This document shows positions 38,407 to 57,994 of a stretch of DNA of 64,000 bases, piece after piece. This DNA is from Brevibacillus brevis (lineage in GTDB: Bacteria; Bacillota; Bacilli; Brevibacillales; Brevibacillaceae), in assembly GCF_001039275.2 (NCBI RefSeq), contig NZ_CP030117.1, positions 5,249,501-5,313,500 of the forward strand, in the 5' to 3' direction. A program made the position numbers and the translations under genes. The stretch's first letter is position 1; each line of letters starts with the position of its first letter. The notes under the pieces were generated by a model that worked only from the letters and a program-made list of their open reading frames with translations, ran no database searches and was not told where the DNA came from.

Positions 38407-38513
38407 TGGATTCACTCCTTGTTTGATCATTATGTAAATTAGGAAAATTTTAACCGATTATAGCACGTACGTTCCCATTCCGTAAAACCAATAGTGGTTG
38501 TCTTCTAACCATA

Positions 38514-38907
38514 GTGGTCGGGAGAAGCCCTGCCACATGTTTTCCAGTCGCCTATATCCTCTCTTCGTTCGGGCGGTCTCCTTCCAAACATGTGACAGTG
38601 CTTTCGTATGGCTTTGATCCTTTTCCGGCTCTTAAAACATAATGAGGGACAGTTCAAAGCGGCTTCCTTGAATTCTTTTAACCAAAAGCCGCGTGGGAAG
38701 AAGCGTATTTCCAGTCCAAGCGCCTCTGGAGCCCACCTCAGCGCAGGAAAAAATGGCGGGGAATTTCAGCTTCACTTATGAACTACCTCCTCGAAACTTC
38801 TACGTTTGAAGCGCTCCCGTCATTTATTCCGGAGCGGACAGTCAATTCCCCCTTGCGGGGCGTAGGCCGAAGCGTAGACTGGAAATGCGCTTCTTCCCCC
38901 ACCACAA
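38514..38907 (-). repeat. Dispersed structured element, copy A
   Basis: It fills most of the 556-bp gap between dinB and addA. The core 38693-38903 has terminal arms 38695-38716 and 38877-38898 that pair at 21 of 22 positions. An inner stem (38741-38760 with 38816-38835) pairs at 16 of 20 positions. A 50-bp tract, 38849-38898, is identical to 52412-52461 of copy B. Outside the core, weaker similarity to copy B continues left to GTGGT near 38514. By shared orientation with the other copies the element reads on the minus strand. No protein frame is credible. Function is unknown. Confidence 0.75.
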
Positions 38908-38925
38908 CAGCTCTAATAAACAAAA

Positions 38926-38962: not shown

Positions 38963-41900
38963 CTAATCCATGCTTTCATCCGAAATCGAAAGTGAGAATC
39001 CACCTGAGAGTAAATAAAGATAACTAGACACGTTCCCTTTTGGCTTGATGATCTGCTTGATCGCCCGGACGTATAGCCTGATCTGGCCTTCGTATCTTCT
39101 TTTCATCTCTTCGATGGCTGCGGCAGTCGCCTCGTTTGCCATCCAATCTGTCTTGAAATCGATCAGGACGAGGCTGCCATCCTGCTCCTCCAACAGGCAA
39201 TCAATGACTCCTTGTACGACAACCTGCTCGTCGCTTTCTTCACCTAACTCAGCTTCTACTTCATAAGCAGGAATCACGAGGGTAAACGGCAGTTCACGAT
39301 GCACGACCGCCGCCGCCTTCATTCGCTGCCCCAAAGGATCGGCGAAGAATCGGGCGATCTGGGGAACATCTACTGCTCGTACCTGCTCGTCAGTCAAAAA
39401 GCGGCGTGCCGCGAGTGCCGTCACCTGCTCCTGAATATCTGCTTCATCCAGCGGACGCTTCAAATCGAGATGCTGGAACACTAAGTGTGTGATTGTCCCT
39501 TTTTCTGCTGCTGTCAGTCGAGTGGATTTTTGCTCAGACAAAAACTTTGGCTTTTCCGTAATGGACGGAAGTATGAGGGACTGACCGCCTTTGCTGACTT
39601 TGGCATGTCGCTTGAGTTCGCTGACACTCCATTTTGCAGCTACGCGTGGCGCAATTGGATGTGGGTCCTGCCATCCTAATCTCTTGTCGACAATCTCTCG
39701 CAAAGTATCATTAGACGGTCGTTCCGGGATCGCCTCTCGTCTGGTCATGCGTTCCCACAGAGACACCTCGTCGTTGGTTGACTCTCCTTGGGCACGGAGC
39801 TCATCTGCCTGATAGAAGTGAAACGACCAAACCGAATCATCCGACACACTTCTGACTCTCACGACTTCTCCTGAGCCTTGTTGCTCTGGATATGCCCGCA
39901 GCACTCCCGCACCAGGATGTCGCAGCATCGCACGCCCCACCCAGTCCAGATATCCCTTTGCCTGAATCAAGTCTTCGTCACTGAGCCGCTCGCTGTCATC
40001 CTGTCTGCCCCAATCTGTCACACTTTTTGCGAGATCCTTGGATGAACCGACAAGAATGAGCTTCTCGCGTGCACGCGTCAAAGCCACATAAAGCACACGC
40101 ATTTCCTCTGCCAGCATATCCCGGCGCAGCTTTTGCCGGATGCCCAGCGCAGCCAGACTCGGATAGCGTAGCTGCATGGAGGGCTCAATAGCCATCGGTC
40201 CAAAGCCCAGATCTTTATGCAGCAAAAACTGGCTTTTCAAATCCATCGTATTAAACTGCTTGCCCATGCCCGCCACAAAAACAACAGGGAACTCCAGCCC
40301 CTTACTTTTGTGGATCGTCATGATGCGTACAACGTCCTCGTTTTCCCCGATGGTTCTTGCTTCGCCCATATCATTGCCGGCTTCTTGCAAACGGTCGACA
40401 AAGCGCAAAAAGCGGAACAAGCCACGATAGGAGCCAGCTTCGTATTGTCTCGCACGATCATAGAGCGCACGCAAGTTGGCCTGTCGCTGCTGACCGTTTT
40501 CTAGAGCCGCCACATAATCGAGATAGCCTGTCTCCCGGTACAGCATCGTCAGCAGTTCTGATAAAGCACCTCTGCGAGCCTCTGTCCGCCATAGATCCAA
40601 TCGGACAAAAAACTGTCGCAGCCTTTTCTCCCAAGGCTCTTGGGCCGGACGTTCCTCTGCATATTGGAGTACCGCTTGGTGAAACGGCCCTGTCGCGTAG
40701 TGAATGCGGATTTGAGCAAGTTGCTCCTCTCGCAAGCCGACGATAGGAGACCGCAATACAGCTGCTAATGGAATGTCTTGGAGCGGGTTGTCAATGACAC
40801 GCAGCAAGGAGAGCATCGTTTCTACCTCAATCGCCGCGAAATAACCCGCAGTCTGCTCCGCATACACAGGAATTCCTGCTGCGTGCAGCTCCTCTTGCAT
40901 CGTCTGCCCCCAGCCAGAGGTCGCACGAAGCAAAATAACGATATCGTGATAGGCCAGCGGGCGCATTCCTCCAGCCTTTTTATCGAAAACGAGCAGTGGC
41001 TCTTCTCCCTCGCCCGGCTCCATCCAACTACGAATGCGGCTGGCAATTAGTCGTGCTTCCAGCTGTGCAACACTCGCTTCCTCTCCCGACTCTCCCTCGG
41101 GAATACCTGCTTCGCTCTCATCTGTCGCCTCTGCAACTACCGCCTGACCTTCTTCTGCTATCGCTGCATTCCGGTCGATCAGATGCATCTCAGCCTGCAA
41201 ACGGTTCGGCTGTACCTCAGGATAAGACGCACGGTTGATCAGCTCCGCCGAAGGATCATAACCGATCTCACCTACCCCGTGAGACATGATCTGGCGAAAC
41301 AAAAAGTTAACGGCATCTACGACTTCCCTTCTACTGCGGAAGTTCGCCGCCAGATCGATGCGCCGACCGATGCAAGCTTCGTCAGCATCACCATCTTTTT
41401 GATAGGTCACATATTTTTCGAGAAACAGCTTCGGCTCTGCCAAGCGGAACCGATAAATACTCTGCTTCACATCCCCCACCATGAAACGATTCGCTGGCTG
41501 ACCATTCGCTCCGTCTCGGGAAACCATTTGCAAGATGGTTTCCTGCACGAGGTTGATATCCTGATATTCGTCTACCAGCACTTCAGCGAACTGTTCACGC
41601 AATTGAGTGGATATAGACGAAGGAACAGTCTCCCCCGACTCATTCGTTTCGGTTAAAACGCGCAGAGCCAGATGCTCCAAGTCGCCAAAGTCGACCAAGC
41701 CACGCGAACGCTTCTCCAATTGAAAAGCATCCGAAAATGCTGTAACCAGCCTAGCTAATGTCTGCATGTGAGGAGCAAGCCGCTGCAAATCGGCGACGTA
41801 CTGCTCGGCTGTCGTAGAAAAGTATTGCTCGATTTGCTCTGCCAGTTCCTTTTTCACACTGTTTCGCAGGTCCTGCACCTGCTCCTTCACGAGCGGATCT

Positions 41901-42790
41901 GTGCCTTTCACCGGAGGCAGCTTGGCAAATACAACTCCTCGAACAGCTTCGACAGTCGCTTCCCAGCCATCTTTGCAAGCCGCTGCTGCACGATGCAGGG
42001 CAGCCGCTTCCGCCTCAAGCAAAGGCAAATAGCCAGCAGGCCCTTCCGGTGAGCCTGCCAACTGAACTGCCCTGCGCATCTTAGCCGTCATTCCACCGAG
42101 TGCCAGCTCCACAGAACGCAGCACGCTCCTGGTCCACACGAGCCCGTCCAGACCGTTTTTATCGTGAACCGCAAACATTCCTGCCGCTTCCCCGAGCCAT
42201 TGTTCTGGTGCTGGATGACTGCGTGAAAACTCATACAGCCTAAGCAGCAATAGGGTGAGGGCATGATCGTCCTGACCGTCCAGCATCACATCAGCTAATG
42301 CATGAAAATCCGCGTCATTCTCATACCAGCTCTCGAGCTGTTCCTCCAAGACATCCTGCCGCAAAAGCTCCCCTTCCATCTGATCGGCTATGCGAAAATC
42401 AGGATCGAGTTCAATCAGATAGTAATACTGGCGCAAAATCCCCAAGCAAAACGAGTGAAGTGTCGTAATCGTCGCCCGCTGGAGCAACGCCAGTTGTCGA
42501 CGCAGGTGTGAAGAGTGCGGGGCATCTTTCAATGCTTTTCGCAAGGCATCGCCAATCCGGTGACGCATCTCTGCCGCAGCCGCATTCGTAAAGGTCACCA
42601 CCAATAGCTGATCGACTCCAACCGGGTCCTTCTCGTCCATGATGCGTCGGATAATCCGCTCAACCAGGACTGAGGTTTTCCCAGAGCCTGCAGCCGCTGC
42701 CACCAGGAGATTATTCCCGCGCTGGATAATCGCTTGCCATTGCTCGTCCGTCCATTGTTCAGGCTTGGCCTGCAATTGTTGATCCACCAT
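38963..42790 (-). CDS. addA: ATP-dependent helicase/nuclease subunit A
   Basis: The 1275-residue UvrD-like motor and nuclease subunit of AddAB, which resects double-strand breaks for RecA loading. Walker A is AAAAGSGKTS (31-40). Helicase motifs include LVDEYQDINLVQETIL and GDVKQSIYRFRLAEP, plus EDVVRIMTIHKSKGLEFPVVFV and VALTRAREKLILVG. The RecB-type nuclease motif VLIDFKTDW lies near the C-terminus. GGAGG precedes the ATG. It overlaps addB by 32 bp and is last in sbcD-sbcC-addB-addA. Confidence 0.96.
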   Translation of the reverse strand: MVDQQLQAKPEQWTDEQWQAIIQRGNNLLVAAAAGSGKTSVLVERIIRRIMDEKDPVGVDQLLVVTFTNAAAAEMRHRIGDALRKALKDAPHSSHLRRQLALLQRATITTLHSFCLGILRQYYYLIELDPDFRIADQMEGELLRQDVLEEQLESWYENDADFHALADVMLDGQDDHALTLLLLRLYEFSRSHPAPEQWLGEAAGMFAVHDKNGLDGLVWTRSVLRSVELALGGMTAKMRRAVQLAGSPEGPAGYLPLLEAEAAALHRAAAACKDGWEATVEAVRGVVFAKLPPVKGTDPLVKEQVQDLRNSVKKELAEQIEQYFSTTAEQYVADLQRLAPHMQTLARLVTAFSDAFQLEKRSRGLVDFGDLEHLALRVLTETNESGETVPSSISTQLREQFAEVLVDEYQDINLVQETILQMVSRDGANGQPANRFMVGDVKQSIYRFRLAEPKLFLEKYVTYQKDGDADEACIGRRIDLAANFRSRREVVDAVNFLFRQIMSHGVGEIGYDPSAELINRASYPEVQPNRLQAEMHLIDRNAAIAEEGQAVVAEATDESEAGIPEGESGEEASVAQLEARLIASRIRSWMEPGEGEEPLLVFDKKAGGMRPLAYHDIVILLRATSGWGQTMQEELHAAGIPVYAEQTAGYFAAIEVETMLSLLRVIDNPLQDIPLAAVLRSPIVGLREEQLAQIRIHYATGPFHQAVLQYAEERPAQEPWEKRLRQFFVRLDLWRTEARRGALSELLTMLYRETGYLDYVAALENGQQRQANLRALYDRARQYEAGSYRGLFRFLRFVDRLQEAGNDMGEARTIGENEDVVRIMTIHKSKGLEFPVVFVAGMGKQFNTMDLKSQFLLHKDLGFGPMAIEPSMQLRYPSLAALGIRQKLRRDMLAEEMRVLYVALTRAREKLILVGSSKDLAKSVTDWGRQDDSERLSDEDLIQAKGYLDWVGRAMLRHPGAGVLRAYPEQQGSGEVVRVRSVSDDSVWSFHFYQADELRAQGESTNDEVSLWERMTRREAIPERPSNDTLREIVDKRLGWQDPHPIAPRVAAKWSVSELKRHAKVSKGGQSLILPSITEKPKFLSEQKSTRLTAAEKGTITHLVFQHLDLKRPLDEADIQEQVTALAARRFLTDEQVRAVDVPQIARFFADPLGQRMKAAAVVHRELPFTLVIPAYEVEAELGEESDEQVVVQGVIDCLLEEQDGSLVLIDFKTDWMANEATAAAIEEMKRRYEGQIRLYVRAIKQIIKPKGNVSSYLYLLSGGFSLSISDESMD

Positions 42791-52124: not shown

Positions 52125-52461
52125 GTGGTGGGGTCGAAGCCCTGTGACAGGACTTCCCAACAGATGTGTATCTGATCCGATGCTTTTACACCATGTATGA
52201 AAGTGGGACATGAAGCATCTTTGAATCCACCCGCAGATTGTTTTATCAAAAGCTCGTGGGAAGAAGTGCATTTCCAGTCCAAGCGCCTCTGGAGCCCTAC
52301 CCAGCTATGAAATAAATGGCGGGGAATTTCAGCTTCACCTATGAGATCCTTCCTCGAAACTTCAACATTTGAAGCGCTCCCGCCATTTATTTCATAGCGG
52401 CCAGTGAATCACCCCTTGCGGGGCGTAGGCCGAAGCGTAGACTGGAAATGCGCTTCTTCCC
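52125..52461 (-). repeat. Dispersed structured element, copy B
   Basis: It lies in the gap between the secreted-protein gene and ctaA, downstream of both. The core 52256-52461 has terminal arms 52258-52279 and 52440-52461 pairing at 21 of 22 positions. An inner stem (52304-52323 with 52379-52398) is perfect over 20 bp. It shares a 50-bp identical tract and many shorter ones with copy A. The same orientation as A is implied by the conserved order of motifs on the minus strand. It is not part of any coding frame. Confidence 0.78.
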
Positions 52462-52485
52462 TTACTACGGCCACCTTATATAAAC

Positions 52486-52525: not shown

Positions 52526-53440
52526 TTATCTTCTCAGCTTTTCATTTGTCGGTGACTTCAACGTCTGCAAGCACATGTAGCAGATGATCCCGAACAAAAT
52601 CGTGATAATCATCGAGTGAGTCAGCGTAGCGTACAGGTGAAGCTTGTAGATAATCACGAAGCCGCCGCTGAACACCTGCGCGATGCAAAGAATAAAGCTC
52701 AGGATACTTGCACCGTACAAATCACGCCGTTTTTCCTTGAAATGACGTATGCAGTAAATCATTGTCCCCAGCAACAAGAATCCCAACACCAACGCAGCGA
52801 TTCTGTGGGCAAAATGAATACCGGTCTGTCCGTACAAATCTGGGATGACCTGTCCCTGACACAGTGGCCAGTCACTGCATGCCATACTTGAACCCGTATG
52901 TCTGACATACGCTCCGAGATAAACAACAGCGTACGTATAAGTAGCGACGAACCACATCCAGTTGCGGAAGCCTTTTGAGACGGTCGTTTTCACCAAGCTT
53001 TGCGTTTTTTCCCGCTGATAAACGAATACACTCAACAAGAATACGCCCGAATAAGCAAGCAAGGAGAATCCGAAGTGCAGAGCCAAAACAGATGAGGACT
53101 GTGGCCAAATAACGGCAGAAGCACCGAGAATGGATTCCACTACGATGAAAAACAAACCAAAAATAGCGAGATTGCGAACTTCTTGGTTGCCTTTGTAATA
53201 GCGCCAGCAAAGTACAGAGAAAATCACGACAACAATACCGGCAACACCTGTAATCAGGCGATGAGAATATTCAATAATGGATGCCAATGTGTATTCTGGA
53301 ACCCATTTACCGTTGCACAGCGGCCAGTCATTTCCACAGCCGAGTGCTGAATCTGTCTTGGTAACAAGCGAACCGGCTACCATTACGATAAACATGATCA
53401 AGGTAGCAAGAAAAGCTAACGGCTTCAGCCATTTTTCCAT
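52526..53440 (-). CDS. ctaA: Heme A synthase
   Basis: A 304-residue, eight-helix membrane enzyme converting heme O to heme A. E57 and H60 (IIEYSHRL), H123-region LALHFGFSL, GIHFAHRIAAL and the last-helix THSMI provide the heme-ligating histidines of the two repeats. The Cys35/Cys42 pair (LGCGNDWPLCNG) is the regulatory disulfide of the Bacillus type, mirrored by ACSDWPLCQG in the second half. It lies 122 bp downstream of ctaB in the same direction. Confidence 0.95.
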   Translation of the reverse strand: MEKWLKPLAFLATLIMFIVMVAGSLVTKTDSALGCGNDWPLCNGKWVPEYTLASIIEYSHRLITGVAGIVVVIFSVLCWRYYKGNQEVRNLAIFGLFFIVVESILGASAVIWPQSSSVLALHFGFSLLAYSGVFLLSVFVYQREKTQSLVKTTVSKGFRNWMWFVATYTYAVVYLGAYVRHTGSSMACSDWPLCQGQVIPDLYGQTGIHFAHRIAALVLGFLLLGTMIYCIRHFKEKRRDLYGASILSFILCIAQVFSGGFVIIYKLHLYATLTHSMIITILFGIICYMCLQTLKSPTNEKLRR

Positions 53441-55969: not shown

Positions 55970-56215
55970 GTTTATATCCTCCCTTCCAAATGTAAAATCT
56001 TGGACGATACCTCACTCGCTGGGCGTCGTCATATGTACGTTTTGTGTCAATATGAAATACCAATTTTTATCTATTAAATGTTGCCCTTGATCCAATCTCC
56101 ATTATACCGTTGATTCCCTTTTTCTTTGTAGACAAAAATGAACAAAGTGTTGAACAATACCATTCACAAAATAGACATATAAAAAGAAAAGACCCTTTTT
56201 GTTTGAGTCAACATA
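55970..56215. other. Gene-free AT-rich stretch upstream of ctaG
   Basis: No coding frame is credible. On the minus strand a perfect TATAAT (56106-56101) lies about 130 bases before ctaG but lacks a clear -35. A TTGACA-like hexamer occurs nearer to ctaG without a fitting -10. A regulated cta promoter is expected here, though its exact position is unclear. Confidence 0.3.
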
Positions 56216-56436
56216 GTGGAGGAGAAGAAAAAGCATAGTTCTCTTCGACTCTGACACGCCCGCACGGGGGATTCACTGTCCGTCTCCACTTCCAAAAGGG
56301 GACCGTCGAGCCAAAGCCACCCTACGGGCGGAAGTTTCTCAAGGAAGAAGTGTTCGACAAGCGTGATCCCCTTTTGGAAGTTCCGACTGGGTAGGCGTTG
56401 TCAAGGTCTACGAGCCCTGTGCTTTTTCTTCTCACC
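56216..56436 (+). repeat. Dispersed structured element, copy C (diverged)
   Basis: It sits in the gap between ctaG and the aldehyde dehydrogenase gene. Terminal arms 56222-56238 and 56417-56433 pair at 16 of 17 positions. The inner stem 56288-56302 / 56367-56381 is perfect over 15 bp. Read on the plus strand it shares with copies A and B (minus) the order: purine-rich arm, ACGCCC-GCA-GGGG, GATTCACTG-CCG (GAATTGACTG in A), inner stem, GAAGTTTC with AGGAAG (AGGAGG in A), returning stem, then CTGGGTAGG (CTGAGGTGG in A). The stem bases themselves differ from A and B. Confidence 0.68.
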
Positions 56437-56480
56437 AGCTTTATTGGTTCATCGCTACCTTTTAAAACCTTTCCTATATG

Positions 56481-56514
56481 AAAAAAAAGAGTCCAGATCT
56501 TGTCTGAACTCTTT
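56481..56514 (-). terminator. Terminator of the paa/aldehyde dehydrogenase operon
   Basis: On the minus strand AGAGTTCAGA and TCTGGACTCT pair with one mismatch, followed by eight T. It starts 14 bases after the dehydrogenase stop. Confidence 0.85.
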
Positions 56515-56527
56515 TTCCTTTCTAATA

Positions 56528-57970
56528 TTAAAGTCCAAAGGAAACGAACTTCGTCTCCAAATACTCATCCATTCCGTAGCGGCCACCCTCACGGCCGATT
56601 CCGCTTTCCTTGAAACCGCCAAACGGCGCTTGTGTCTGGGTAGGCGATCCGTCATTGATCCCAACGATTCCGTATTCGAGGAGCTCAGCCATGCGGAAGC
56701 AACGCTGATTATCTCGAGTGTACACATAAGCAGCCAAGCCATACCGCGTGTCGTTTGCCATCTGTACGACATCCGCTTCCTCTGTAAAACGCACGAGTGG
56801 AACGACAGGACCGAACGTTTCCTCAAAAGAGATTTTCATATCCGATGTAACACCAGCGAGCAAGGTCGGTTCGCAATAGAAGCCCTTCGCATAATCACCT
56901 TCAACCAGACGATTTCCGCCGTATACTACTTGCCCGCCTTTATCCTTGGCGTCCTCGATATGCTCGAGCACCTTGTTCAGGGCACGCTCGTTCACCAGTG
57001 GACCGATCTCTGTCTCTTTCTGGCGACCATCCCCTACCTTCGCACGCTTCAGACGCTCTACCAGCTTTTCTGTGAAAGCGTCTGCGACATCCTCGTGGAC
57101 GTACAGACGGTTCGTGCAAATGCACATTTGACCGGAGTTACGGAACTTGCTCTCAAACAGACCTTTTACGGCTGCATCCAGATCAGCATCCGGGAATACG
57201 ATGAACGGCGCGTGACCACCAAGCTCCATGCTGACGCGCTTCACTTGCTTTGCCGCGCCCTCCATCAGCAGCTTGCCGACACGAGTGGAGCCTGTAAATC
57301 CAATTTTGGAGAGCTTCGGATTGTCGATGAACTCCTTCCCAATCGATTCAGGATTTCCAATGACGAGGTTTACGACGCCTTTTGGAAAGCCAGCCTGCTC
57401 AATCAGCTCAAACATGCGAATTGCAGACAGCGGCGTGCTTTCTGCTGGCTTTAAAACCACCGTGCAACCGGCAGCCAACGCCGGAGCGATCTTACGTGCA
57501 ACCATGTTCACCGGGAAGTTCCACGGGGTAATCGCCCCTACCACCCCTACAGGCTGACGCAGCACCATGATGCGCTTGTTCGCAACCGAGGATGGGATCG
57601 TTTCTCCGTTGACTCTCTTGGCTTCTTCTGCGTACCAGACAAAGTTATCAGCGGCACCCAGCACTTCGCCTTTTGCCTCGCCCAAAGGCTTACCCATCTC
57701 AGCAGAAATGATGCCCGCCAGTTCGTCCCGATTGTTTTTCACCAGCTCAGACAAGTTGTACAAATATTTGGCGCGCTCGCGAGCGGTCAATCGAGACCAG
57801 CTTGCGAATGCCTGATGAGCAGCGTCGATGGCCTTGTTGGCATCGCGACCATCGCCGAAGGTTACTGTTCCAACTGTTTCCCCTGTAGCAGGATTCGTAA
57901 TCTGAATGGACTCACCGCTCTCGGCAGTTACCCATTCTCCATTAATAAACATTTGCTTGTACTCTCCCAT
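56528..57970 (-). CDS. Succinate-semialdehyde-type aldehyde dehydrogenase (GabD-like)
   Basis: A 480-residue NAD(P)-dependent ALDH. ITPWNFPVNMVARKIAPALAAG is the cofactor segment, GFTGSTRVGKLL the glycine motif and MELGGHAPFIVF carries the general-base Glu. RNSGQMCICTNRLYV carries the nucleophilic Cys with a second Cys two residues later, a pairing seen in redox-regulated SSDHs. GAGGAG supports the ATG at 57970. It starts only 24 bases after paaD. It may therefore oxidise the ring-opened semialdehyde of phenylacetate breakdown and not, or not only, succinate semialdehyde. Confidence 0.9.
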   Translation of the reverse strand: MGEYKQMFINGEWVTAESGESIQITNPATGETVGTVTFGDGRDANKAIDAAHQAFASWSRLTARERAKYLYNLSELVKNNRDELAGIISAEMGKPLGEAKGEVLGAADNFVWYAEEAKRVNGETIPSSVANKRIMVLRQPVGVVGAITPWNFPVNMVARKIAPALAAGCTVVLKPAESTPLSAIRMFELIEQAGFPKGVVNLVIGNPESIGKEFIDNPKLSKIGFTGSTRVGKLLMEGAAKQVKRVSMELGGHAPFIVFPDADLDAAVKGLFESKFRNSGQMCICTNRLYVHEDVADAFTEKLVERLKRAKVGDGRQKETEIGPLVNERALNKVLEHIEDAKDKGGQVVYGGNRLVEGDYAKGFYCEPTLLAGVTSDMKISFEETFGPVVPLVRFTEEADVVQMANDTRYGLAAYVYTRDNQRCFRMAELLEYGIVGINDGSPTQTQAPFGGFKESGIGREGGRYGMDEYLETKFVSFGL

Positions 57971-57994
57971 GACATTCGCTCCTCTCAATCTCTC

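Follow-up and report, generated by a model that had tools for sequence, protein, structure and literature searches.

Terminator-associated folded repeats in Brevibacillus: a probable superfamily of structure-constrained interspersed elements

We analyzed a window of 64,000 nucleotides (the whole stretch of DNA examined) from Brevibacillus brevis, whose chromosome is a single contig of 6.44 Mb, and followed up three elements in it, A, B, and C. They probably belong to an old superfamily of interspersed repeats of the BOX/ERIC/bcr kind, non-autonomous and constrained by structure. This superfamily would comprise a minimum of four sequence families (A/B, C, X, and Y), would have been spread by machinery acting on a folded single strand, and would now be transmitted mostly vertically. 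A/B and C elements have a homologous fold in which stem changes are compensated; they are present in many copies, occupy orthologous sites in related genomes, have a fixed orientation at terminators, and form tail-to-tail pairs.

The initial annotation had placed copy C at 56216–56436 on the plus strand, and its coordinates, letters, and pairings proved right. The conserved body of this C-type element, in the motif orientation used there, is the block at 56202–56455 (plus strand) that is common to ~20 full copies in the genome, with flanks that vary by copy. The 5′ outer arm, GAGAAGAAAAAGCATAG (56222–56238), pairs with the 3′ outer arm, CTGTGCTTTTTCTTCTC (56417–56433), a pairing also present in the common fold of A/B and C. 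The inner stem consists of ACTTCCAAAAGGGGA (56288–56302) and its perfect complement over 15 bp, TCCCCTTTTGGAAGT (56367–56381), as had been proposed; three adjacent hypervariable pairs in this stem covary, both among copies and among orthologues. The apical part (56305–56358) is closed by GTCGA (56305–56309) paired with TCGAC (56354–56358) and holds the GAAGTTTC and AGGAAG segments. A 3′ tail of variable length (56456–56482, plus strand) then reaches the intrinsic terminator (56483–56519, minus strand) of an aldehyde dehydrogenase gene (56528–57988, minus strand). This terminator is directed toward the 3′ end of C; as it is palindromic, it could function in both directions. The minimum free energy of the 221-nt copy is −95.5 kcal/mol on the plus strand and −98.5 kcal/mol on the minus strand, with a folding z score of about −5.3 on either strand; none of 200 shuffles was as stable. 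The hypervariable triplet of the inner stem lies at approximately 56291–56293 and 56376–56378, and its two sides are almost always complementary, in orthologues as well.

Copies A and B are present on the minus strand with their motifs in the same order as in C. Copy A (38683–38912) lies after the terminator of a UvrD-helicase/PDDEXK gene (38963–42790, minus strand), and copy B (52247–52474) directly after that of a ctaA-like gene (52526–53440, minus strand). Copy A stands tail-to-tail with an X-type element (38508–38616, plus strand) that was absent from the initial annotation. This small X copy came from similarity; it was overlooked when the window was scanned for other folds of unusual stability, and that scan revealed no further full-size element.

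To compare the folds, we built a covariance model from 20 A/B-type copies, a larger set than copies A and B alone, and searched 192,590 bases. The expectation had been that a model of A and B would recognize C; window copy C scored 22.9 bits (E = 0.006) at 56248–56408 on the plus strand, ~15 other C copies were also scored by this A/B-only model, and all 30 matches were to repeat elements, either on the element's own strand or on the reverse one. When 18 C and 21 A/B copies were aligned, the common fold contained 37 pairs, with 98.1% of cells paired and two-sided changes in 21 pairs, more than in any shuffle. Covariation was 0.495, compared to 0.196 in shuffles and at most 0.106 when the partners were slid. 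Since 11 of 14 inner-stem pairs in this alignment carry two-sided changes, the stem has been rewritten while pairing was kept. Both the shared architecture of A, B, and C and the claim of one homologous, lineage-restricted structure family that retains its fold while stem bases are replaced are thereby supported. The accompanying claim of conserved loops held in part, but GAAGTTTC is exact in only about half of the C copies. The A/B copies are hypervariable at the two bases within CTGGGTAGG and at the GGGG-GACTG joint.

Copy C had been described as a third, highly diverged copy. Its distant kinship to A/B stands, but it is not a lone copy: searching the genome with C yielded ~20 full-length copies with 89–94% identity and some truncated ones, making C one member of a subfamily. 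A search with B yielded ~25 full or nearly full A/B copies (79–88%). Two further families adjoin A/B copies: X (~109 bp), with 11 copies, 10 of which are beside an A/B copy, and Y (~231 bp), with ~27 full or nearly full copies. Y-type repeats were found downstream of A/B copies at L036, L045, L052, L053, and L056, and A/B copies are frequently tail-to-tail with X, Y, or C. Judging from their similar ends and similar hairpin plan, X and Y may belong to the same superfamily as A/B and C. The elements thus occur as tens of dispersed, similar copies that are mostly intergenic, restricted to one lineage, and endowed with extensive conserved secondary structure.

Several copies have lost the central hairpin by deletion. 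Two such C copies are L027 and L028, and the break in L028 lies between two GACTG-like direct repeats. The 3′ tails of A/B copies (for example, L038 after position 1742) carry a small hairpin, CTTGAA-AGTAGA-TTCAAG, beyond the closing arm; its stem letters vary among copies and its pairing is often kept.

All copies are near gene ends. A same-strand gene precedes 23 of 24 A/B copies. In 18 of 24, the end of an intrinsic terminator falls in the range from 4 nt inside the element to 12 nt upstream of it, compared to 6 of 24 for the same stretch on the other strand. For C, a terminator is aimed at the 3′ end in 14 of 19 copies (8 on the other strand), and an upstream terminator is almost never present. 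That is, A/B elements begin right after terminators in the sense of the gene, and C elements have the opposite orientation. Between tandem genes, the ratio of sense to antisense was 15 to 1 for A/B and 2 to 12 for C. The same comparison gave 13 to 2 for A/B and 1 to 15 for C in G006, and the C-like copies of B. massiliensis follow the same rule as C (1 to 7). On the scale of the chromosome, every C copy and, with a single exception, every Y copy is on the plus strand beyond ~4 Mb and on the minus strand before ~2.7 Mb; for A/B the rule is reversed, with three exceptions. If the contig starts at the origin, C and Y would be head-on and A/B co-directional with replication. Gene orientation could be the source of this strand bias.

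Nine Brevibacillus genomes (species) of one clade share the window C copy at the same site. At this locus, G010, which belongs to another clade, has a Y-like element, G023 probably has the remnant of one, and G015 has no element. Most copies in the source genome have an orthologue in G006. Overall, the elements diverge about as much as neighboring genes and more slowly than other intergenic DNA, although these are rough averages and some flanks are rearranged. The C orthologue pairs of G000 and G006 (19 loci) contain 11 double changes that keep Watson-Crick pairing, compared to ~0.4 expected under independent change, an estimate from the substitution rate. Most of these changes sit in three adjacent hypervariable pairs. 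We left out the A/B orthologues, for which only 8 pairs were usable. Compensated changes at fixed loci suggest that the elements were under constraint once inserted, beyond what is expected of dead repeats, and in this respect count against our favored explanation.

A rival explanation is a family of structured regulatory RNAs or 3′-UTR elements at terminators. In such a family, the fold, produced by read-through or convergent transcription, would block read-through, protect the 3′ end, or bind a protein. Besides the compensated double changes, C orthologues differ at 4.0% of paired but 9.6% of unpaired positions, internal loops are retained between perfect helices, and several species have kept the sites and the orientation. 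We nevertheless consider a regulatory RNA family rather unlikely. The whole central hairpin is missing from many orthologues, and since it has been lost from several copies, the fold is conserved but dispensable at single loci. Moreover, A/B and C are oppositely oriented to the terminator. The deviations from perfect helices add a further difficulty. In the orientation of the initial annotation, A·C exceeds G·U in each family (30 versus 14 cells in one and 21 versus 9 in the other, 51 versus 23 in total), with helices predicted on both strands and sequences that are related. As G·U on the opposite strand would yield an A·C excess, constraint may act on the reverse complement, a weak indication; folding energies by strand were contradictory between data sets. 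Because both families lean toward the opposite strand, transcription in one direction relative to the terminator does not suit both. Taken together, gene-end sites beside terminators, hairpin loss in orthologues, and dozens of dispersed copies are more in keeping with a structured interspersed repeat than with an RNA gene of ~200 nt.

Palindromes are subject to quasi-palindrome correction. It is conceivable, if quite improbable, that the elements are DNA-level near-palindromes upheld by such hairpin-templated repair and by gene conversion among copies, with no RNA function. In favor of this explanation, the double changes are concentrated in three neighboring pairs and C folds equally well on both strands. 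Against it, mismatched internal loops (such as TCC × TCC) that correction should erase persist in nearly all C copies, and the imbalance between A·C and G·U is unexpected from a strand-symmetric process.

We also searched for relatives and for genes that might mobilize the repeats. A 25-base C pattern had 49 matches in GTDB genomes, all of them in Brevibacillus (B. formosus, B. fortis, B. porteri, and B. massiliensis), and G026 contains C-like copies with 67–79% identity. Carriage by plasmids or phages was rejected, as neither collection contained a match to the elements. Rfam yielded no match at the gathering score and nothing credible at E values up to 10. Literature searches returned no description of these repeats in Brevibacillus. 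Y1 transposases had zero matches in G000 and G014, both of which carry C elements. With neither a Y1_Tnp gene nor a reverse transcriptase in the source genome, we rejected both a REP/RAYT-type Y1 mobilizer and a reverse transcriptase mobilizer. Mobilization of the REP/RAYT or group II type from within the present genome is therefore unlikely, and the mobilizer, the search for which covered the Y1 and reverse transcriptase families, is either missing or of another type. A MITE would have terminal inverted repeats at both ends and a target-site duplication; here the arms are inverted, but the 3′ tails run 30–100 nt past them. Comparison of G000 with G006 gave no clean empty sites, the candidates being hairpin-deletion remnants or too diverged to reveal a duplication, and the apparent empty sites that we inspected showed no target-site duplication. 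These absences, like those of a Y1 transposase and a reverse transcriptase, count against our favored explanation.

Group IIC introns integrate next to terminator stem-loops (PMC7923331), a preference that recalls the terminator siting of the Brevibacillus elements. Since the sister species G006 and G011 contain multi-copy group II introns with ~430-aa proteins (L136, L137, and others), which are absent from the source genome, we considered whether the elements are relics of group IIC introns or of another terminator-targeting retroelement. Such an origin is very improbable and, judging from sequence, appears largely ruled out already. The elements match no Rfam group II ribozyme domain and are dissimilar to the introns of the sister species, the sole matches lying in a flank that holds neighboring repeats. 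The source genome has no reverse transcriptase. In contrast to group IIC introns, the elements have no catalytic domains and no intron-encoded protein and are just 230–280 bp long. Mobilization in trans by an intron protein is conceivable.

How the superfamily of interspersed repeats that we favor arose can be sketched. In the past, machinery acting on a folded single strand, either RNA or single-stranded DNA, would have spread the elements by joining that strand to the T-tract flank of terminators; present inheritance would be mostly vertical. The fold may be kept by selection on read-through RNA or on the single strand or, alternatively, may be maintained in part by copying in which one arm of the hairpin serves as the template for the other. 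No mobilizer that we found explains the terminator rule or the opposite orientation of A/B and C. A bolder reading would be a new class of folded element with fixed orientation at the terminator T-tract, compensated upkeep of the fold at each site while the sequence is replaced, and either a terminator-linked RNA or terminator-targeted movement that uses no known transposase. We think it unlikely that the elements form such a class.

ERIC and REP/BIME sequences are extragenic imperfect palindromes near gene ends. The Brevibacillus elements resemble them in this respect but appear to differ in sequence; in addition, REPs are linked to Y1 (RAYT) transposases, whereas the genome carrying our elements has no Y1 gene. 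The best parallels are the BOX and SPRITE repeats of pneumococcus and the bcr repeats of the Bacillus cereus group (PMC3049150; PMC3446304; PMC6542083). BOX, RUP, and SPRITE of Streptococcus pneumoniae are likewise small, folded, intergenic interspersed repeats of one lineage that are enriched near gene 3′ ends and move slowly at present (PMC3049150). BOX and RUP have terminal inverted repeats tied to a resident IS, which we did not see in Brevibacillus (PMC3049150). The Brevibacillus elements further differ from these three in that they have a fixed orientation directly at terminator T-tracts, form tail-to-tail pairs, and replace their stems from one family to another. The repeats bcr1–bcr18 are similarly group-specific, 100–400 bp long, present in tens of copies if abundant, and in some cases of conserved RNA structure, and 40–51% of copies are transcribed in B. 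cereus, having been found in mRNAs (PMC3446304; PMC6542083). Their insertion is TTTAT-linked, whereas the Brevibacillus elements are terminator-linked, belong to another lineage, and form several families with similar ends (PMC6542083; PMC3446304).

The accessible text of these three papers describes no tight terminator rule, opposite orientation of related families, tail-to-tail pairs, or stem replacement between families (PMC3049150; PMC3446304; PMC6542083). The terminator placement rule, the opposite orientation of A/B and C, the tail-to-tail pairs, and the compensated changes in C helices between species are new. With several families whose ends are alike but whose stems are unrelated, all at one type of site, and with orthologues in ~10 species, the elements constitute a natural experiment that could test whether small bacterial repeats are selected in place for structure and how repeats end up parked in one orientation at terminators.

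Apart from the repeats, several distant Brevibacillus species conserve AAAATGAACAAAGTGTTGA, which lies at approximately 56134–56153 upstream of a ctaG-like gene and is a possible operator or promoter.
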